A stretch of 64,000 bases of DNA, taken from assembly GCA_017886205.1 (NCBI GenBank), contig JAFNEO010000008.1, positions 1 to 64,000 of the forward strand. The letters are read 5' to 3'. The notes beneath the pieces were generated by a model. It did no database searches. It worked only from the letters and a program-made list of their open reading frames with translations, and was not told where the DNA came from. The position numbers and the translations under genes were made by a program. Source of the stretch: Candidatus Aminicenantota bacterium (lineage in GTDB: Bacteria > Acidobacteriota > Aminicenantia > Aminicenantales > UBA8522). Below are positions 25,635-38,345 of this stretch, piece after piece. The number at the start of each line of letters is the position of its first letter. Positions within the stretch are counted from its first letter, which is position 1.

Positions 25635-25708
25635 GTGAGTGTAGCTCAACTGGTTAGAGCAGCGGACTGTGGATCCGCAGGTTGGGGGTTCGAGACCCCT
25701 CACTCACC
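25635..25708 (+). tRNA. tRNA-His (GTG anticodon)
   Basis: Acceptor GTGAGTG/CACTCAC, TAGCTCAACTGGTTAGAGC D-arm, anticodon loop CTGTGGA, T-loop TTCGAGA, discriminator C with G at -1 typical of tRNA-His. Confidence 0.95.
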
Positions 25709-25749
25709 CTGCCCCTTTTCCTGGCAATTCAAGAGGACCGCATCTCTCC

Positions 25750-26934
25750 TCACCAACGAACCGAGGTCCCGGGTTGCGATTTGCCGGATGGCATCTTGAA
25801 TGGTTTCGATAGCTTGATCACGCGTTCAACCTTCGGATACCAACCTTGCGATGCGAACTCATTCCCGTGGAGATAGCACTGCGCTATCACTTCATCGCTG
25901 CCCTCGGTGAATGTCAGCAGCCAGCTCCTCGGGACGCCGGTTCCCGGCGGGGTATGATATTTGGTTAAGGCCGCCACGTTGATAAACGTCGTGCCCCAGC
26001 GCCGCTCGACGTGCGATTTCCCGCCATAGGTGTCGTCGGGGGCCGTGTGTGTGTGCGCCCCGAGCCATAAATCGATGCGCGTTGGAGCCGCCGCCAAATA
26101 GTTTTCGAACGCGCCCGAATCCGGTTTGCTGTCCACCCAATATAGGTATGACGCGCCCTGCGGCGTACCCCGCGGAAAATAGCCGTGATATCCGGATTTC
26201 CACGCGCCCTTTTCATCGCGCTGCATTCCCTCCCATTCGCCAGACGCGGTCGTGGTATCTTTGAGCATATAATGATGTGCGCTGATGATGATGTATGAGC
26301 GATTCTCCTCGACCACGCGCTTCCACCAGCGGAAGGTCTCACCACTCACTACACCGCCAGGATTTCCACCGAGCGTGCCGCGACCTATTTTCTGCGTCGG
26401 TTCATTGATGTCGCTCATCATTAAAAAGAAAAGGTTTCCGGCCCGAAACGAGTAGCGTTCCCATGTCCCTTCGATAGGAAACGGCCGCTTCATCGGGTCC
26501 ACATGAGAAAACTCCGTGTGTTCGCCCGCCGGATCCACCCATTTGCGCCACCACCAAGCCTGCGATTCATCGAGACCGCTCCGGTCGTGATTGCCACACA
26601 AGTCGTAGACTTGCTCACGGCGATGCTTCTTCAGTATGCCGAACTGCCGAACAATCTCTTCCCCTTCCGGGTCTTTCGGCGTGCCTTGCCCGCCGGACAT
26701 ATCTCCCAAATCCAGCGCGATGTCCCAATCGAAACCGGCTGCGGATTCTGACTGCCGAAGCGCTTCCGCAAGGCTTTCTCGGCCTTGTTTCTTATCAGTC
26801 CCCACGTGAGCATCTGCGAAGACCCACACCCGTAACTTCCTTGGCGCCTCGCCGGGCATGCTGACGAGTTCGAGGACTGCAAAGACGATCAACGAGAGGA
26901 GAAGTCGCAGACGCGCTCGCACCGGATCCTCCAA
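25750..26934 (-). CDS. Calcineurin-like metallophosphoesterase
   Basis: RVWVFADAHVGTDKKQ; DLGDMSGGQG; LCGNHDRSGLDE; IISAHHYM; WLGAHTH. Confidence 0.88.
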   Translation of the reverse strand: MEDPVRARLRLLLSLIVFAVLELVSMPGEAPRKLRVWVFADAHVGTDKKQGRESLAEALRQSESAAGFDWDIALDLGDMSGGQGTPKDPEGEEIVRQFGILKKHRREQVYDLCGNHDRSGLDESQAWWWRKWVDPAGEHTEFSHVDPMKRPFPIEGTWERYSFRAGNLFFLMMSDINEPTQKIGRGTLGGNPGGVVSGETFRWWKRVVEENRSYIIISAHHYMLKDTTTASGEWEGMQRDEKGAWKSGYHGYFPRGTPQGASYLYWVDSKPDSGAFENYLAAAPTRIDLWLGAHTHTAPDDTYGGKSHVERRWGTTFINVAALTKYHTPPGTGVPRSWLLTFTEGSDEVIAQCYLHGNEFASQGWYPKVERVIKLSKPFKMPSGKSQPGTSVRW

Positions 26935-26988
26935 TAATCAGATCTTCATATAGACGTCGAATGATCGTTCAAGCGCTGATTTTGCCTC

Positions 26989-27389
26989 ATCCCATCGTTA
27001 GGGATGATAAATCGCGAACAGACAAGATGTCAAATTGAGCTCAATGAGAAAGGCGCCGACCCCGGCCTGCCCGAAGTGGAGGATGCCAGGAAGAGGCTGG
27101 CGGGACTGAAAGACTAAGCAACGGGCTGAAGAGATCTAATCTGATCAGAGATGCTGTTATGTCTGAGAAAGGTTCTAAGATCGTATATTAGCCCACCCTG
27201 CCTATTTTCTTATTAAGACTCCCCTAGCATAAGCATCTTGCCAAGTCCCCAATTTTGGATGATTTTCAACAATTTTTCCACTTCAGGGCAAATCAAAGCA
27301 GAGATATCTTTTGAATTCTTTGCTCCTGAGATCCCATTCACAATTTGACATCGGATCCTGTTCAGATTTATCATTCCTAACGATGGGAT
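26989..27389. mobile_element. Possible non-autonomous element: 49-bp imperfect inverted repeats flanking repeat copy 1
   Basis: Left arm 26989-27037 and right arm 27341-27389 are complementary (first 12 nt perfect, last 25 nt with one mismatch, middle diverged). Confidence 0.5.
27046..27202 (+). repeat. Cassette-like intergenic repeat, copy 1 (with TPR-protein tail ..EKGADPGLPEVEDARKRLAGLKD-stop)
   Basis: Shares GCTGAAG..CTAATCTGATCAGAGATGCTGTTATGTCTGAGAAA...TATTAGCCCACCCTGCC with four other copies. Confidence 0.85.
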
Positions 27390-27444
27390 AGGGGTAAAAA
27401 AGAAAATCGTTTTTATCTCATCTACCTTAGAAAAGGAGGTTTTC

Positions 27445-27984
27445 ATGAAAAAGATTCGGGGGAAGAGTTTTTTTGTCGGGGTTGCCATTTTGGCTGTCTG
27501 TGCAACGTTTTTAGCATTACAGCCAACCCCAACCAAGGTTCGAGTAGGGACGTTTGATTCCCGGGCTGTGGCCATAGCTTACGCTCGATCCGCTCTGGCT
27601 GCCTCGGTCAGGAAGGAATGGGAGGATAAATACGAAAAAGCTAAGGCCGAGAAAAACGAGGCGGTGATTAAGGAATGCGAAGCCTGGGGCCCCAATCATC
27701 ATCGATTACAGATGCTCCAAGCTTTTAGCATCGCCTCGGTTGCTGATATCCTTGAAAAGGTCAAAGATCAGCTGCCCAAGGCGGCCCAAGAGGCCGGTGT
27801 TGATATCTTGGCGAGCAAATGGGAACTTGCCTACCAGAACCCATCCCTAGAGGTTGTCGATGTGACATCACATTTAGTGAAGATATTCAATCCCGACGAA
27901 CGAACACTCAAGATACTCGAGGATTTGTCAAAGCAGCCTCCAATTCCATTATACGAAGCGCTGCAAATGAAGGAAGATGAGTAG
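27445..27984 (+). CDS. Hypothetical secreted/periplasmic protein
   Basis: AAGGAGG RBS then ATG; N-terminal signal-like segment; no family recognised confidently. Confidence 0.7.
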   Translation: MKKIRGKSFFVGVAILAVCATFLALQPTPTKVRVGTFDSRAVAIAYARSALAASVRKEWEDKYEKAKAEKNEAVIKECEAWGPNHHRLQMLQAFSIASVADILEKVKDQLPKAAQEAGVDILASKWELAYQNPSLEVVDVTSHLVKIFNPDERTLKILEDLSKQPPIPLYEALQMKEDE

Positions 27985-28130
27985 GAGGTAATACCGGCTT
28001 CCCCGAAGCTGAGGACGCCGGGAAGAGGCTGTCGAGCTGAAGAATTAAGCAATCGACTGAAGAGACTTAATCTGAGCAGCGATGCTGTTATGCCTGAGAA
28101 AAGTTCGAAAATTGGACGTTAGCCCACCCC
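27984..28130 (+). repeat. Cassette-like intergenic repeat, copy 2
   Basis: ..GACTGAAGAGACTTAATCTGAGCAGCGATGCTGTTATGCCTGAGAAAAGTTCGAAAATTGGACGTTAGCCCACCCC; degraded TPR tail upstream. Confidence 0.9.
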
Positions 28131-28293
28131 ACTCTTATTTCGCCGTTTTCCCCTGATTTTCTCCCAAATGGGACTCGTCTTCCTTTAAGCACCTTTAGCC
28201 GACGGGTGGACAAACCAGATAAATTCATCACCCCATCCAAGGATACCGACAGAGATACCCCCGCGGAAATATACGATCACGGTGAAACAAGCA

Positions 28294-29826
28294 CTAATTT
28301 ATACGCTCTGTTGGGCTCAGTTTAGTCCTAATTAATTTCATCGTAAAACCCATCACCGTATCCACTCCCTTTTTTGCATCTTCCTCCGACTGAACCACTT
28401 CATAGTCAGGAATAATCCCTCTCGCTGTGCTGGGGTCACCATTCGGCCGTATGCATAAAGTCGTGGAGCCCCCGGCCAAGACATTAATGTGCGGAAGAAA
28501 AAACCAGCATTGCTGACCATCATTTGACATGCTTTGTCCAGTTTCAGTCCCTATTATTTTCCCGATTCGATAGTCTTTTATCAGTCCGACAAAACAGTTT
28601 CCAGCCGAATAAACGTTATGGTTTGATAGAACATAGACATTTCCTTTATATCTTATCGAGTCGGGTTTAGGATCCAGTGCCTTATTTTCACATTCATAAT
28701 ATGTTCCATATGCGTGCTCTTCCTGACAATCCCCCAGACAATTCGCTGCCTTCCTCATTTTAGGATTTTTTCTATCCTCGGGATAAAGAAACAGGTAAGA
28801 GAAGTCTTCCAGAATCTTGCTTTTTTTATAGTAAAACTTTGAATAAGCCTTGAAAGGCAGAGGGTACAAGTATTTTATTATTTCGATGCCATAATCATCC
28901 CCACCGCCGGGATTATCTCTTACGTCAATGATCAAGTTCTTTATAGATTTGTTTCTTAATTGAAGGAAAACAGATTCAAGAAAAGCGTAATATTTTGCCT
29001 CATCTTTTATTACGAAGTCCCTGAAATTCAATAAACTCGTCCTTGGATCAATTTGATTATATTCATATTGTTCCTTTCCCTTTTTCACTTCTTGATTCTG
29101 ACTCTTTTATTTCAGGTCCATTAACTCAATAGAAGTTAACCCATCGAGGGTATATACAGCATCTTTCATTTTTATTTTAAAAGGTCCCTTGAAATCATTA
29201 ATCCACCATAGTTCAATCGGGAAACTGTCTTGAATATCCATCAGTTTTGAATATTTCGTTGCACCTTCGGCATATCTGTACAAATTATCAATAATGGTTT
29301 TCGATGTTGCGTCATTAATAGCAATTATCTCGTCCCCGACCGGGATTCTCGTTTGTGAGTAGTTTTTTGCAATCCAGAGCCGGTTATCCTCAATCTTGAC
29401 ATCAAGAGGAAGATATTTTCCGTTGATTTTGTCATACAACGCTTTTTCCTCGAAAATCTTCCAAGGGATAAAAACGAGTGTGTGGCTAAGCCGCAAATCG
29501 TTGACTACAGGCACAAATCGCAACATAACCTCGCGTCTGGTTAGGGGGCGGTTGATTCCGTCTTTTAATGTTTTAATCTCTTTATAAAATGCGTCCTTTG
29601 ATAGATTGATATATGGGTTTACTCCAATTTCTTCAATTGTTCTAACAAACAAATCGATGTCCGCACGCAATAATTCCGCGGGAATTTTCAAATCAACCTT
29701 GTTTTCGTCGTACCGTTGATATATTTCTAAAAGTACATCATTATAATTTCTGAACCGAACATCCTGTGCTCCTGCCATCTGAACGCAGAACATCAAGATT
29801 ATGAACAGATTGATCTTTCGTTTCAT
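28294..29826 (-). pseudogene. S41-type peptidase gene interrupted by a single in-frame TAA (two ORFs in the same frame)
   Basis: 29826-29107 ends ..IELMDLK-TAA and the frame continues KSQNQEVKKGKEQYEYNQID.. into 28294-29088, which holds NLIIDVRDNPGGGDDYG and SAGNCFVGLIKDYRIGKIIGTETGQ. Confidence 0.85.
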
Positions 29827-30050: not shown

Positions 30051-30274
30051 CGGTCTAGGAAGAAGCTGGTGGGGCTGAAGGACTAGGCAACAGACTGAAG
30101 GGATTGAATCTGATCAGCGATGCTGTTATGCCTGAGAAAAGTACGAAGTTCGTATATTAGCCCACCCTGCCCTTTTTTCCTTTTTTTATTCAGCCAGTTC
30201 GCTTATGTCATGCTTTTAGCCTGACTCATCTAGACTGAGCCGTTTTTAGCGTTTTTGTCCACACCGTGTCCACA
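30051..30274 (+). repeat. Cassette-like intergenic repeat, copy 3 plus conserved about 100-nt downstream extension
   Basis: GACTGAAGGGATTGAATCTGATCAGCGATGCTGTTATGCCTGAGAAAAGTACGAAGTTCGTATATTAGCCCACCCTGCC; extension shares GAGCCGTTTTTAGCGTTTTTGTCCACACCGTGTCCAC with copy 4. Confidence 0.88.
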
Positions 30275-30354
30275 GGGGAAGAGGTCTATTTTAAGTTGAC
30301 TATCCTCCCCATTCATTGCTAATCTCTAGCCATACCCGATAAAAGGGAAGATAA

Positions 30355-32862
30355 GTGGCCGTCAAGTGCCCGAAATGTCATTCTGAGAATGCTGAGACCA
30401 AGCAGTTCTGTGCCGATTGTGGGACAAAACTAATCTCCCTTAAGGGAAGTGAAGTCACAGCAACTTTGGAGACACCAAGGGAAGAACTTCCCCGTGGAAC
30501 CATATTTGCCAACCGATACGAGATCATCGAAGAGTTGGGAAAAGGGGGGATGGGCAGAGTTTACAGGGCTTTTGATAAGCAACTCGAGGAAGAGGTCGCC
30601 ATTAAGTTCCTCAAGCCGGAGATCGCCTCTGATAAAAAAAACCTTGACCGTTTCAAGAATGAGATCAAGCTTGCCAGGAAGATCATCCACAGAAACGTCT
30701 GCCGGATGCATGACCTTCATGAAGAAAAGGATTCGTTCTTTATCACGATGGAGTATGTGGCTGGGGAAGACTTGAAGAGTCAGCTGCGGAGGATGGGCCA
30801 GGTTCCAGTTGGAAAGGCTGTTTTTATCGCTCAACAGATCGCAGAGGGGCTGGCCGAGGCTCACAAGTTGGGAATCATCCACAGGGATCTCAAGCCCCAC
30901 AACGTGATGATCGACAAAGAGGGGAATGCTCGGATCATGGACTTCGGAATTTCCCGTTCTCTAGGTAGCCGGGAGCTCACCGGAGAGGGAGTGATCATTG
31001 GGACTCCTGACTATATGAGTCCTGAGCAGGCTGAAGGCAAGGAAGCGGATGCCCGTTCAGATATCTATTCCCTGGGCGTGATTCTTTATGAAATGGTAAC
31101 AGGGAGAGTGCCTTTTGAAGGCGAGGCTGCTCTCTCGATAGCCATGAAGCACAAGACGGAAGTACCTCGAGATCCAAAACTGGTTAATGCCCAAGTCCCC
31201 GAAGACTTGAGCCGAGTGGTTCTGAAATGCCTGGAGAAGGATAAGGAAAAAAGATATCAAAGTGCGGACGAGCTTTATTTGGAGCTCGGAAAAATTGAGA
31301 AGGGTATCCCCGCCACAGAACGGGTTCTGACCGGAAGAAAGCCTTTCACCTCAAAAGAGATCACGGTCAAATTCAGCCTGAAGAAGCTTCTCGTCCCCAG
31401 TCTTGTTACAGTAGCTCTTATCGTTATAGCCATGATTATCCTTTGGCGGGTTATTCCCCAAAAAGCAGCCACTTCAGCCAGATCAGCCAAGCATTCCATC
31501 GCCGTACTGCCTTTTGAGGATTTAAGCCAAGCCAAAAGCTACGAATCTCTATGCGATGGAATTTCGGAAACGCTCATCAACGCCCTGACCAATATCGAAG
31601 GCCTTTGGGTTCCGGCCAGAACCTCGGCCTTTTTCTTCAAGGGGAAAACCCAGGACGTCCGTGAGATCGGCCAGAAGCTCGGTGTCGAAAATGTGCTTGA
31701 TGGGAGCGTTCAGGCGGCCGGGGACAATCTCCGGGTTACAGCCCGAATCAGCAATACCCAGGACGGCCGCCAAGTCTGGTCGGAGATATACAATCGAAAA
31801 ATGGCCGACATATTTGCCATTCAGGACGACATTGCCAAAGCCATAGTCACGGTGTTGAAGATTAAGCTACTGGGTGACAAGGGCGGGCCTCTCGTCAAGA
31901 ATTATACCGAGAATCTTCAAGCTTATAACCTGTATCTGCAGGGTCGCTATTTCTGGAAAAAAAGGACAGCAGAAGACATAAAGAAGGCTATGGATTACTT
32001 CAATCAGGCTGTTGCATTGGACCCCAAGTATACCTTGGCCTATGTGGGGCTAGCAGATTGCTATCTCCTTCTTGCCCAATATGGAAGGTCTCCAATAAAG
32101 GATGTTTTGCCAAAAGCCAGGACAGCTGTTTTAAAGGCGTTGGAAATTGATGAGACACTCGCTGAAGCTCATACCTCGCTGGCTATGATTATGAAAACAG
32201 ATTGGGATTGGGAAAATGCGGAAAAAGAGTTCAAGCGAGCTATTGAGCTCAACCCCAATTATACAACTGCTCATCAGTGGTATAACATTCTCCTTAAAAA
32301 TATGGGTCGATTGGATGAAGCCACGATCGAAATCAAACAGGCTTTGGAACTTGATCCCCTCTCACTTATTATAAATGTGAATTTGGGAGTCCTGTCATAT
32401 CTAAAGCGAGAATATGACAAAGCCATACAACAGCATCTCAAGACGCTTGAACTCGACCAGAATTTTGCCCAAGGGCGACTTAGGCTTGGGGAGTGTTATC
32501 GGCAAAGAGGGATGTTGAAGGAGGCGATCACTGAGTTTCAAAAGGCCAGAACGCTTTTTGGAAATAGCCCTTATGGATTAGGAGAGCTTGGAAATGTCTA
32601 TGCGTTAGCAGGAAAAACAGATGAGGCAATAGACGTGCTCACAAATCTCGAAGAGCTATTAAAGCAAGGATATTCTGTTAACTATGACATTGCATATATT
32701 CACTTCGGCCTAGGCGATAGGGATAAGGCATTTGAATATTTGGAAAGGGCTTATGAGGAAAAAGAAAACGGGATGGAATCGCTTAAAGTCGATCCAAGTT
32801 TAGATAACCTTCGCTCTGACCCTCGTTACAAGTCTCTTATCAAAAGAATGAATCTGGAATGA
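30355..32862 (+). CDS. Serine/threonine protein kinase with N-terminal zinc ribbon, TM segment and C-terminal TPR repeats
   Basis: CPKCHSENAETKQFCADCGTKL; GKGGMGRVYRAFD; IIHRDLKPHNVMID; DFGISRS; GTPDYMSPEQ; TPR region. Confidence 0.93.
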   Translation: MAVKCPKCHSENAETKQFCADCGTKLISLKGSEVTATLETPREELPRGTIFANRYEIIEELGKGGMGRVYRAFDKQLEEEVAIKFLKPEIASDKKNLDRFKNEIKLARKIIHRNVCRMHDLHEEKDSFFITMEYVAGEDLKSQLRRMGQVPVGKAVFIAQQIAEGLAEAHKLGIIHRDLKPHNVMIDKEGNARIMDFGISRSLGSRELTGEGVIIGTPDYMSPEQAEGKEADARSDIYSLGVILYEMVTGRVPFEGEAALSIAMKHKTEVPRDPKLVNAQVPEDLSRVVLKCLEKDKEKRYQSADELYLELGKIEKGIPATERVLTGRKPFTSKEITVKFSLKKLLVPSLVTVALIVIAMIILWRVIPQKAATSARSAKHSIAVLPFEDLSQAKSYESLCDGISETLINALTNIEGLWVPARTSAFFFKGKTQDVREIGQKLGVENVLDGSVQAAGDNLRVTARISNTQDGRQVWSEIYNRKMADIFAIQDDIAKAIVTVLKIKLLGDKGGPLVKNYTENLQAYNLYLQGRYFWKKRTAEDIKKAMDYFNQAVALDPKYTLAYVGLADCYLLLAQYGRSPIKDVLPKARTAVLKALEIDETLAEAHTSLAMIMKTDWDWENAEKEFKRAIELNPNYTTAHQWYNILLKNMGRLDEATIEIKQALELDPLSLIINVNLGVLSYLKREYDKAIQQHLKTLELDQNFAQGRLRLGECYRQRGMLKEAITEFQKARTLFGNSPYGLGELGNVYALAGKTDEAIDVLTNLEELLKQGYSVNYDIAYIHFGLGDRDKAFEYLERAYEEKENGMESLKVDPSLDNLRSDPRYKSLIKRMNLE

Positions 32863-32905: not shown

Positions 32906-33166
32906 GAAAAAGCGCCAACCCCGGCCTGCCCGAAGTTGAGGATGCCAGGAAGAGGCTGGCTGGGCTGAAGGGTTAAGCAACAGACTTAAGACATTGAATC
33001 TGATAAGCGATACTGTGATGCCTGAGAAAAGTTCGAAAATTGGACATTAGCCCACCCTGCCTTATTTTTTCCTTTGTTAGCCAGTCACTTCCCTTATATC
33101 ATGCTTCTGCCCTGGGCAATTTAGGCTGAGCCGTTATTAGCGTTTTTGTTCACACCTTGTCCACAC
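32906..33166 (+). repeat. Cassette-like intergenic repeat, copy 4 (TPR tail ..KSANPGLPEVEDARKRLAGLKG-stop) plus downstream extension
   Basis: GACATTGAATCTGATAAGCGATACTGTGATGCCTGAGAAAAGTTCGAAAATTGGACATTAGCCCACCCTGCC; extension as in copy 3. Confidence 0.9.
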
Positions 33167-33242
33167 GGGTCTGAGTCCTCGTTCTCGTTGAATCGTGCTT
33201 GCCCAAGTGTTATAAGGGAAAGCGGCTTAGCTTGAGGGAAAT

Positions 33243-34205
33243 ATGAATCAAGAGGTAAACATGAACAATAATCTAAAAATCTTAATTCTGAGCTTGTTCA
33301 TGGTATTTCTCCTTGTGGGATGTGCCAAAAAAGGAGCTAAAACATCCAAAGGAACCTCTCAACAGGAAGGAACTTCAGGGGTTGTATCCGTGGAGGGTGC
33401 TGAACTTCACTATGTCATAGAAGGAAAAGGAATTCCATGGATTGGTCTCGGTCATTCAGAGAGCCAACGCCGAATATTGTCTCAGGAGTTGAGAAATCAT
33501 TTCAAGTTTGTTTTTATGGACCTAAGGCATGATACTCGGTCCAATTCTTCATTAGAGATATCCAGAATAACGCTGGATACATATCTTGATGACATTGATA
33601 AAGTCCGTAGAACTCTGGGCCTTGATGTGGCTGCTGTATTTGGACATTCCCATCACGCATTTATGGCAATCGAATATGCACGAAAGTATCCTACAAAAAT
33701 ATCTCATCTCATTATAACAGGCTGCAAACCAAGAACTGCATGGGGTGCAGGTGATGAATTTTGGGAAACAGATGCATCAGATGAAAGAAAGATGGTCTTT
33801 AACCAGAACTGGGAAAAAATTCCAAGAGATGAACTGAATCAGATGTCTCCAAAAGAAAGGCAAGTGACTACATATGTGGCCATGACACCAAAACTATTGT
33901 ATGATCCGAGAGGTGATTTATCATATATTGTCAATGCCTATGATAATAACAGGGATGTATTTCTTCATTTACAAAATTCCATTCTAAAGGATTATGACAT
34001 TATTGAAGGGCCTACAATTTCAACACCGGTATTCCTAGCACTTGGCCGATACGATTATGTATCTCCTTACATACTCTGGGATGATAGAAAAGACGTATTG
34101 CCGAACCTCTCCTACAATCTCTTCGAGAAAAGCGGTCATTTTCCAATGGTTGAGGAACAGGAGTTGTTCGATAAGAAGCTGATTGAATGGATTAAGAGTC
34201 ATTAG
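33243..34205 (+). CDS. Alpha/beta hydrolase lipoprotein
   Basis: Lipobox-like LVGCAKKG; VFGHSHHAFMAIEYARKYP nucleophile-elbow region; SGHFPMVEEQELF. Confidence 0.8.
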   Translation: MNQEVNMNNNLKILILSLFMVFLLVGCAKKGAKTSKGTSQQEGTSGVVSVEGAELHYVIEGKGIPWIGLGHSESQRRILSQELRNHFKFVFMDLRHDTRSNSSLEISRITLDTYLDDIDKVRRTLGLDVAAVFGHSHHAFMAIEYARKYPTKISHLIITGCKPRTAWGAGDEFWETDASDERKMVFNQNWEKIPRDELNQMSPKERQVTTYVAMTPKLLYDPRGDLSYIVNAYDNNRDVFLHLQNSILKDYDIIEGPTISTPVFLALGRYDYVSPYILWDDRKDVLPNLSYNLFEKSGHFPMVEEQELFDKKLIEWIKSH

Positions 34206-34224
34206 TCAAAGAATCTACTTAGGA

Positions 34225-34319
34225 GTGGAAGGGCTAACCAAAAGTCTGAAGACATTGAATCTGGTAGGCAATGCTTGTCGACCTGAGGAAAGTTCGAAAA
34301 TTGGACGTTAGCCCACCCC
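34225..34319 (+). repeat. Cassette-like intergenic repeat, copy 5 with complementary 8-bp ends
   Basis: GGGCTAAC (34231-34238) ... GTTAGCCC (34307-34314); interior shares GTCTGAAGACATTGAATCTG and GAAAGTTCGAAAATTGGACGTTAGCCCACC with other copies. Confidence 0.88.
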
Positions 34320-34355
34320 ATCTATCACCCTATTAATCGGCAATGCCTAATGGCA

Positions 34356-35828: not shown

Positions 35829-38210
35829 ATGAAACGTCGCCAGGTCCTACAATTCCTTCCCCTTTCTGTTGCGTCACTGAGGCTTCTGGGACGAGAGCCG
35901 GTTTCACCGTTATCGAAACCGGACCTGGAAAAAGCCGCTGAGATCCCCGCCGCCCAAACCAGTCGCCCCATGAATGGCCCGCTCCTCGCCCAGCTCAGAC
36001 CTCACAACGGCGCCCCGACCCTCTTCCTCAATGGCCGTCCCACCTTCCCCGGGATCTATTGGGTATCCGGACCCGAACCCGACCGCTGGGATTTCACCGG
36101 GCAGGCCCGGCGCGACGCCGACGCCGGAATCCACATCTACGCTTTCGATGTCGGCAAAGGCCGCGAGTGGATCGGGCCGGCGACCGACCCCGCCCACCCC
36201 TTTGATTTCTCATCCGTCAAGGCTCGCTTCAGCCGCATCCTCGAAGCCGACCCGCAGGCCCTCTTCCACCTCCGCATCTATCTGGAGACCGGGCACGGCG
36301 ACTGGTGGGAAAAAACCTATCCCGAAGAATGCGAGGTCACATCCGAGGGGAAACGGAACGGCATGTCCTTCGCCTCAAGGGTTTGGCAGGATCAAGTCAA
36401 GGAGTTTTTGCGGGCCTACGCCGACCACTTCCGCCGTATCGGCCTCTCCGACCGCGTCCTCGCCTACCAAGTTGGGACCGGCCACACCGGGGAGTGGGTC
36501 AAGGGCGAATCCTCGATGTACTGGCCATGCGGCGACTATAGCGAGCCGATGCGCCGGCACTTCCGTGCCTGGCTTCGCGCCAAGTACAAAGACAGCGTCA
36601 AATCGCTTCAATCGGCCTGGGCCAAGCCGTCCGCGACCTTTGATTCCGCCGAGGTCCCGAGCGCCGAAGCGCAGCTCAACGCCAAACGCTATACTTTCCG
36701 CGACCCGATCGAGGAGCAGGATGTCATCGACTATTACCAGTGCCTGGCCGAGCTCTGTGCCGACTGCCTGATCGACTTCTGCAAGACGGCCAAGGAAGCG
36801 ACCGACGGCACCAAGCTGGCCGGCGCTTTCTACGGCTATCTCCTCGATCTCGCCTGGAACGGCGGGTTCTTCCGGGAGCGGCCGGACAGCGACTATTCCA
36901 CCTGCCAGCGCTCGGGTCATCTCGGCCTGGGCAAAGTGCTCCGCTCCCCCCACGTGGATTTCCTCGTGAGCCCCTACAGCTACGGCTTCCGCGGCATCGG
37001 CGGGGACGGGCCAAGCATGCTGCCCTCGGAGTCGGTCAGGCTCCACGGCAAGCTCTGCCTCATCGAGGATGACACACGCACTCACGCCGACCCCCAGGGC
37101 CAGAACTACGGTCAGGCTGCAAACCTGTCTGAGAGCGTCGCGATCCTGCGCCGCAACTTCGCGGGCGTCGTCGCCCGCGGCCAAGGCATCTGGTGGGCCA
37201 CCTGGAAGGTGGACACCGCCAAAGAGCCGGCCTTTCTACCGCTCCTCAAGGCCTTCGAGAGTCTGGGGACTTTCGCGCTCTCGCTCGACCGCAAACCGGC
37301 TTCGGAGGTCGCCGTTTTTATCGATGACGAGAGCTTCTTCTACCAGTCTGTCAAGAACAGCCTCGATATCCCCCTCATTTTTCAGCAGCGGCTCTGGGGC
37401 CTGCCGCGGATCGGCGCTCCCTTCGACGTCTACCTCCTCGGGGACTTGCTTGAAGGGAACCTGCCTGCATACAAACTTTGTATATTTTTAAACGTCTTCC
37501 GCCTGGACGAGAAGCGGCGGGCGGCGCTCAAGAAAGCGATCCGGCGCGATAAACGCACTTTCCTCTGGATCTACGCTCCTGGATTGATCAACGATGACCT
37601 CTCACTCGAAAACATGAGCGACCTCACCGGCTTCAGGTTCGGGATGGGCGAGCAGCCATGGGGCCCGCTCGTCCACATCGCTGATTTCGGCCACCCTATT
37701 ACTAAGGCCCTCGACCAGGACCTTTTCTGGGGGACGAACGCCAAGCTTGCTCCCCTTTTCCATGTTGATGACACCGAAGCGCATGTCCTGGGCCAGGTCG
37801 TCTATTCCCAAGGCAACTGCAAGCCGGGGTTTGCGGTCAAGACTTTCCCGGAGTGGACCTCGGTCTATTCGGCGGCGCCCAACCTCCCGGCTTCTGTCCT
37901 CCGCGGCATCGCCCGCTTCGCCCGCGTCCATATCTATAGCGATGCCGGAGACGTCCTCTATGCTTCGCGCCAGCTTCTCGGCGTGCACACGATCGGTGGC
38001 GGAAACCGCACGTTCAAGCTGCCTCGGCCCGCCGAACTCGTCCACGACCTCTTCGAAAACAAGACCGTGGCAAGAAACACGGCGGAGTTCGAGATCACAT
38101 TGCCACGGGCCTCGACCTCTCTTTTCTATACCGGTGACGCTAAAATGCTGACAACCCTGAAGAAGTCTGCAGCCGTGCTTTTTTTAACGAAGGCGAGGGA
38201 GGGTCCCTGA
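35829..38210 (+). CDS. Beta-galactosidase-like (GH42-type) glycoside hydrolase
   Basis: N-terminal export-signal-like MKRRQVLQFLPLSVASLRLL; TIM-barrel-like sequence (HLRIYLETGHGDWW, AYQVGTGHTGEW); ATG at 35829 after AGGAGAAC. Confidence 0.65.
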   Translation: MKRRQVLQFLPLSVASLRLLGREPVSPLSKPDLEKAAEIPAAQTSRPMNGPLLAQLRPHNGAPTLFLNGRPTFPGIYWVSGPEPDRWDFTGQARRDADAGIHIYAFDVGKGREWIGPATDPAHPFDFSSVKARFSRILEADPQALFHLRIYLETGHGDWWEKTYPEECEVTSEGKRNGMSFASRVWQDQVKEFLRAYADHFRRIGLSDRVLAYQVGTGHTGEWVKGESSMYWPCGDYSEPMRRHFRAWLRAKYKDSVKSLQSAWAKPSATFDSAEVPSAEAQLNAKRYTFRDPIEEQDVIDYYQCLAELCADCLIDFCKTAKEATDGTKLAGAFYGYLLDLAWNGGFFRERPDSDYSTCQRSGHLGLGKVLRSPHVDFLVSPYSYGFRGIGGDGPSMLPSESVRLHGKLCLIEDDTRTHADPQGQNYGQAANLSESVAILRRNFAGVVARGQGIWWATWKVDTAKEPAFLPLLKAFESLGTFALSLDRKPASEVAVFIDDESFFYQSVKNSLDIPLIFQQRLWGLPRIGAPFDVYLLGDLLEGNLPAYKLCIFLNVFRLDEKRRAALKKAIRRDKRTFLWIYAPGLINDDLSLENMSDLTGFRFGMGEQPWGPLVHIADFGHPITKALDQDLFWGTNAKLAPLFHVDDTEAHVLGQVVYSQGNCKPGFAVKTFPEWTSVYSAAPNLPASVLRGIARFARVHIYSDAGDVLYASRQLLGVHTIGGGNRTFKLPRPAELVHDLFENKTVARNTAEFEITLPRASTSLFYTGDAKMLTTLKKSAAVLFLTKAREGP

Positions 38211-38214
38211 CGAA

Positions 38215-38345
38215 AGCCCTCCGCAGCGCAGCGGGCAGGGATCTCCTCCGGAGGAGGAGAGAGCGGAGCGAGGACAGGGGAGCGAATTTTCCTCGCCGGG
38301 GAAAATTCGCGTCTTTCGCAGGGACTCTCCCGAGCCTCTCTTGAG
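38215..38345 (+). repeat. Related intergenic repeat with 11-bp hairpin
   Basis: GCGAATTTTCC-TCGCCGG-GGAAAATTCGC (38282-38310); flanks resemble the 19180-19332 repeat. Confidence 0.65.

Follow-up and report, generated by a model that had tools for sequence, protein, structure and literature searches.

Between 25.7 and 34.3 kb of the 64,000-nucleotide stretch analysed here (the window), behind a tRNA-His gene, lies a variable island in which a short sequence derived from the 3' end of a Ser/Thr kinase gene recurs behind unrelated genes. Comparison with related genomes suggests, with a confidence that we would place evenly in the balance, that genes carrying such a tail behind their stop codon may be exchangeable units of tRNA-anchored islands, the tail acting as a recombination border for an enzyme that we leave unspecified. 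Our evidence base is the sequence comparison of draft MAGs and a few chromosomes, with counts per genome taken from searches and from the stretches fetched; the window's own genome (G000) is 3.5 Mb in 58 contigs and 93% complete. The array and its parts are as follows:

25635-25709, + strand: tRNA-His (GTG), the anchor of the variable region (ARAGORN, cmscan)
25750-26934, - strand: metallophosphatase gene within the variable region (Pfam PF00149)
27046-27117, + strand: tail copy 1, EKGADPGLPEVEDARKRLAGLKD-stop
27118-27202, + strand: core copy 1
27445-27984, + strand: 179-aa gene without a Pfam match
27994-28041, + strand: tail copy 2, degraded, 10 nt past the stop of the 179-aa gene
28042-28131, + strand: core copy 2
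28294-29826, - strand: S41 peptidase in two frames, 28294-29088 and 29107-29826 (PF03572; PDZ_4 slightly below cut-off)
30057-30086, + strand: tail copy 3, degraded, final 29-30 nt only
30087-30171, + strand: core copy 3
30174-30278, + strand: kinase upstream-type repeat, first copy, ahead of the kinase; also found upstream of kinases on C7
30355-32862, + strand: 835-aa Ser/Thr kinase with zinc ribbon, Pkinase and TPRs (Pfam domains), its C-terminus unlike the tail
32908-32976, + strand: tail copy 4, KSANPGLPEVEDARKRLAGLKG-stop, starting 46 nt past the kinase stop (32862)
32977-33061, + strand: core copy 4
33065-33169, + strand: kinase upstream-type repeat, second copy, ahead of the hydrolase gene
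33243-34205, + strand: alpha/beta hydrolase gene (PF00561)
34223-34320, + strand: core copy 5, without a tail, 17 nt past the hydrolase stop

A repeat finder recovers the 163-nt unit of tail plus core in four window copies, at 60-83% to the reference, and a fifth copy that is core only (34223-34320). With E-values of 1e-35 to 1e-43 in the genome search, the recurrence of tail plus core goes far beyond chance. The kinase upstream-type repeat, normally found ahead of kinases on C7, follows core copies 3 and 4 in the window. A previous sequence-only reading of this DNA had described copies 1 and 4 as carrying the coding tail and its stop (EKGADPGLPEVEDARKRLAGLKD and KSANPGLPEVEDARKRLAGLKG) and copies 2 and 3 as degraded, and this is indeed what stands at these positions; the core-only fifth copy was not part of that observation. 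Two other repeats were seen in the same stretch. Inverted-repeat arms of the CCCATCGTTAGGGATGATAAATC type (window 26961-27047 and 27341-27399) flank tail/core copy 1 and are possibly those of a MITE, related arms being present in G002, in G003 and close to the 179-aa unit on C35; and a sequence of ~150 nt at window 38179-38344, a MITE- or REP-like repeat, has at least 15 dispersed copies on G000 contigs at 82-86% identity and also occurs in G001 and G002.

By alignment, the tail originates from a kinase gene. Copy 4 (32908-32976) corresponds to the final 22 codons of a Ser/Thr kinase-TPR family of ~1,050 aa, and the tail peptide has more than 30 matches in G000, of which about half terminate open frames of ~1,030-1,180 aa that contain, where scanned, a zinc ribbon, a Pkinase domain and TPRs; the remaining matches are orphans, with no kinase attached. 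The proposal that each repeat is the 3' end of a TPR gene plus its flank, set behind unrelated genes, thus holds up, as the tails match the C-termini of intact TPR kinases of G000, one of which continues into the same core. This one, the kinase at C32:12957-16109, ends in the copy-4 tail and is followed by a window-type core of ~90 nt and then by another kinase, so that tail plus core serve there as native spacing between tandem kinases. The window kinase at 30355-32862 had been read as ending differently, and it does. This can be refined, however, in that its N-terminal half is as in the tail donors and its C-terminal half alone differs; judged by these alignments, window kinase and tail donors are one superfamily. 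In a scan of named genomes, nearly all relatives with the tail were Candidatus Aminicenantes; a few matches come from records under the names Zixibacteria, Desulfobacteraceae or Acidobacteria, which could be misbinned. No tail relative was found among viral contigs, which leaves a viral carrier unsupported. In L133 and L183, orphans and the longer tail matches at the intact kinases there have in common a tail variant carrying a 12-nt insert (EVRTLT), suggestive of local copying or conversion.

Orphan tails comprising the last ~33 kinase codons, mostly non-coding, occur across Candidatus Aminicenantes, and the pattern repeats in 78 named loci and in further relatives from several families of the order. 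In the genomes compared, their placement and orientation are consistent. With genes called as longest open frames, the nearest upstream gene is on the same strand for 51 of 61 full-length orphans, on the opposite strand for 8 and lacking within 600 nt for 2 (binomial p ~1e-8 versus 0.5, and 3e-4 versus 0.65). The gap from the upstream stop to the orphan tail is about 20-30 nt (median near 20 when taken to the first kinase-derived base), and in G000 most orphans are located 10-123 nt past the stop of a same-strand gene, the genes ahead of them including three 827-839-aa kinases whose C-terminal half is different, as well as OmpA, DUF1579, cupin and other genes. That the tail is read in frame with the upstream gene by readthrough or frameshift was rejected, since the stop-to-tail spacings are hardly ever in frame. 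Orphan tails are under relaxed coding constraint: in a collection made partly via a protein pattern, and therefore biased towards well-kept tails, 14 of 60 have in-frame stops, and 49% of the differences between orphan and nearest kinase fall on third positions, versus 64% between kinases (p=2e-6). A complete loss of codon periodicity was likewise rejected, as a clean alignment shows it to be partly retained, inherited from the kinase, but relaxed.

Across the genomes compared, genes and tails are shared as units, and the genomic context switches at the tail. The 179-aa gene plus tail is present three times in G000 (window, C35 and C40); the three copies are alike through the tail and have different downstream flanks, running beyond it into the core, another flank class or the 3' half of a tRNA. 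Other homologous gene-plus-tail stretches also stop at the tail (L095 versus L119, -2553 to +99; L112 versus L124, up to +98; C35 versus C40, +105; C8 versus C35, +99). A block of tail, 301-aa gene and tail is common to two genera (L119 versus L251) that differ in the genes upstream of it, and a second cross-genus block (L203 versus L170/L242) extends from mid-tail as far as the following tail and includes a tRNA-Arg fragment and a gene for a 407-aa aldo/keto reductase; two shared blocks start around tail nucleotide 60, GAGGTTGAGGATGC, a candidate crossover position. For a DUF975-family gene, which has the tail right at its stop in L240 and is tail-less in L211, the junction is the stop codon itself. 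In pairs of related tails, one side only is common in 17 of 20 and both sides in 3, and one-sided sharing was found for 16 of 19 tails versus 13 of 37 tail-less gene ends of the same loci (Fisher p=0.0006), counts that are small and come from pairs that are partly redundant and not fully independent. An earlier suggestion of repeated recombination at the 3' end fits these data, in which gene-tail junctions are kept while flanks change at the tail. They lend support to probable recombination at the tail, and we infer that strand exchange would occur at the tail itself, by recombination instead of deletion.

Anchoring at tRNA genes and empty sites in relatives are likewise apparent from these alignments. 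Arrays start behind tRNA-His in the window, tRNA-Ala on C35 and tRNA-Thr on C7, all on the same strand. At the tRNA-His site G003 is nearly empty, with sequence matching window 34995 onward within ~0.9 kb of the tRNA, and G002 of the same genus has a different kinase. In G062 (L204) six genes and several tails form a 10.5-kb array that is flanked by the 5' half of a tRNA-Glu, broken off at the anticodon, and by an intact tRNA-Glu; G023 is without this array at tRNA-Glu. More broadly, 20 of 200 tails have tRNA-like sequence no more than 250 nt behind them, compared with 14 among 1383 control windows, the 5' part being missing in 12 of the 20; tRNA fragments are present behind tails on C7, C38 and C40 and in L170, L203, L206 and L175. 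No second tRNA-His fragment was found in the window, and no integrase is among the six window-array genes or the six L204 array genes. One family of tyrosine recombinases has tRNA 3' fragments directly behind (L271, L272, L280, L283 and others), with two members in G000 (C40 and C15) outside the window array, and one member, in L231, stands directly behind a tail. On G000 C40 (96806-96879 to ~112251), an intact tRNA-Arg(TCG), together with an integrase that has a matching tRNA 3' fragment behind it, is suggestive of an autonomous 15-kb tRNA island.

Decay by deletion would dispense with unit mobility: kinase bodies would have been lost between other genes, leaving their tails. We consider this possible but doubtful as a full account. 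Such a deletion is seen in L224, where the kinase has lost all that lies between the beginning of its kinase domain and a point 27 nt short of the tail, and the counterpart in L215 is intact; intact tandem kinases exist on C32 and C7, and the relaxed codon constraint of the orphans agrees with decay. However, instead of taking any length up to ~3 kb from a source gene of ~3,150 nt, remnants measure 60-239 nt in 73 of 99 cases and are shorter in 14. They stem from the 3' end only, except L224 and a few longer remnants, and not from all parts of the kinase gene. Short orphan pieces of the kinase interior or 5' part were nearly absent when the whole gene was the query, a search that could miss old interior pieces because interior paralog identity is only ~70%. 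Deletion also sits poorly with the three downstream flanks of the 179-aa unit in G000, and with orphans being closer to orphans of other genomes more often than to kinases of their own. Decayed tandem paralogs, one of the two origins offered by the sequence-only reading, therefore contribute, as L224 illustrates, but are insufficient alone, since little more than the final 60-240 nt is left of each kinase gene, and these remnants abut same-strand stops and form tail-gene-tail blocks that cross genera.

With a similar degree of doubt we regard homologous recombination, by RecA or strand annealing, between tails of ~100 nt and with no dedicated enzyme. The tails are long, often 80-90% or more alike and in the same orientation, crossovers between them would yield gene-plus-tail units with switched flanks, and the ragged left borders of orphans fit this process better than a precise recombinase. 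What it leaves unexplained is the first gain of a tail 10-40 nt past the stops of unrelated genes, and within-genome tail similarity is often below 80%, low for a 100-nt exchange. This reading, deletion and the exchange of units overlap, and our weights for the three are not meant to add up to a whole.

The core does not appear to be essential. It was absent from the 59 relatives searched and found only in G000, which makes it a local addition, and we rejected it as a conserved mobile unit because the tail is phylum-wide and the core is confined to G000. Nor did the picture of neutral tails beside a conserved core apply, as tails and cores diverge similarly in the window. The core was also rejected as an attC site or structured RNA: its seven copies have no consensus structure and fold near shuffled sequences or modestly better. 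A very unlikely alternative is that selection has kept the tail behind many genes for a function in the 3'UTR or as an RNA element, such as a terminator or an sRNA-like sequence. Its constant strand and stop-codon distance would suit such a role and the + strand could fold into a hairpin (-15.4 kcal/mol, z -1.8), but covariation is not above that of shuffles, for which reason the hairpin was rejected as a conserved structure; moreover there is no T-run and no Rfam match in the window, the borders are ragged, and the adjoining core lacks a consensus fold. Two further repeated sequences were encountered. Repeat family F1, of ~85 nt and with 35 copies in the fetched loci (e.g. L096:6474-6558, G000 C35:100656-100738 and L231:503-578), is oriented as all nearby tails, lies mostly behind gene ends and has some pairing support for three stems; it could be a further border element or an unrecognised RNA. 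A sequence of 265-480 nt (L204:11029-11511) recurs at 80-91% identity in many Aminicenantes genomes, with no Rfam match.

Finally, an artefact of metagenome assembly at repeats is scarcely credible: tails are repeats where MAG contigs break and near which they often end, with N-gaps just before tails in L217 and L226, so that some context switches could be assembly errors, but the window copies, 60-86% alike, are too divergent for collapse, the gene-tail junction recurs across assemblies (L095 versus L119) and three times in G000, and orphans are also present in whole-chromosome records (CP070750; L131 and L184).

Which known systems does the array resemble? With their unrelated single genes kept in one orientation, each with a recombination-type border behind the stop (a role that we infer), the tail arrays are like integron cassette arrays, and units are common to arrays of different genomes; same-orientation arrays with a tail (T) after each gene are seen in L170 (846-T-407-T-320-T-199), L146, L155 and L096. 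The core sites of attC are RYYYAAC and GTTRRRY (PMC3053210). None of 60 full-length orphan tails contained a pair of these motifs (one in the shuffled control), nor did any of the five window copies on either strand. The integron integrase model (IntI, TIGR02249) gave nothing above its 265-bit cut-off in G000, at 93% completeness, and was positive in 1 of 7 tail-bearing relatives (G023), being absent in G062, G063, G065, G061, G031 and G064. An integron identity was therefore rejected on account of the lack of IntI in G000 and of the attC motif in the 60 tails; unlike in integrons, the border of the tail units derives from the 3' end of a kinase gene and not from attC. The single positive, G023:C47:23556-24497, comes from an Aminicenantes MAG and looks like a genuine integron integrase (403 bits versus the 265 cut-off); its reading frame contains one TAA.

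In Rhs, CdiA and MafB loci, alternative C-terminal parts are displaced behind the active gene. The 820-850 aa kinases may offer a parallel in that they share their N-terminal half with the tail donors and have an alternative C-terminal part behind, yet here a short tail stands behind many unrelated genes, with no toxin/immunity module. Islands anchored at tRNA genes are known, including tandem arrays and sites centred on the anticodon (Islander type, PMC4383910). Like these, the islands described here begin at an intact tRNA and have empty sites in relatives, and displaced tRNA fragments accompany several of the arrays, though none was detected for the window's tRNA-His; the tRNA-Glu island of L204, which splits its tRNA at the anticodon, resembles the anticodon site class of that work, and L271, L272, L280 and L283 have an integrase beside a tRNA 3' fragment. 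In contrast to Islander-type islands, the window and L204 arrays are without an integrase, each unit ends in a kinase tail, and the window array has no detectable second tRNA-His fragment. The dusA islands, which use the 5' end of the gene, carry their own integrase and are large (PMC4482086), are comparable in that a conserved end of a coding gene borders mobile DNA, whereas in the present arrays single genes are bordered by a kinase 3' end that comes from a multi-copy family. We found no description of a kinase-tail border element in the literature searched; the array is cassette-like and situated in tRNA-anchored islands of a known type, and its border element is new within that literature.

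Under the exchange of gene-plus-tail units that we favour, a unit would consist of a gene, its stop codon, 10-50 nt and the tail (the last ~33 kinase-TPR codons), with all tails pointing in one direction. Units would be gained, lost and exchanged across Aminicenantes with borders at the tail, which may act as a shared site or homology patch through which new genes are joined to, or swapped at, a resident kinase's 3' end or that of a unit already in place; the agent at the tail could be a recombinase or RecA-type homology. The islands themselves would enter tRNA genes, most likely via the tRNA-targeting tyrosine integrases of the same genomes. Several observations weigh against this reading: the window array contains neither an integrase nor a second tRNA-His fragment, the left borders of orphans are ragged with no fixed crossover point provable, the tail hairpin does not covary beyond shuffles, and the context-switch counts are small, partly redundant and open to assembly error. 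A bolder version, which we think unlikely, is a cassette system distinct from integrons, made of single-gene units whose site would have evolved from the kinase-TPR coding 3' end; the units would be moved and arrayed at tRNA genes, with intact kinases as docking points.

To our knowledge, the origin of integron-type cassettes and sites, and of common recombination borders behind unrelated genes, is an open question. In the present case the source of the border can be seen: it is the terminal 33 codons of a kinase family with multiple copies. A single phylum contains intact donors alongside full and partial orphans as well as exchanged units, which allows the order of the steps to be worked out and put to the test. 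If true, the cassette reading would show one route by which a cassette recombination site arises. In these MAGs genes often have a kinase tail next to them, and such a tail might be mistaken for a pseudogene or a small gene. The kinase-rich tRNA hotspots would be places where genes are exchanged in a phylum that is largely uncultured.
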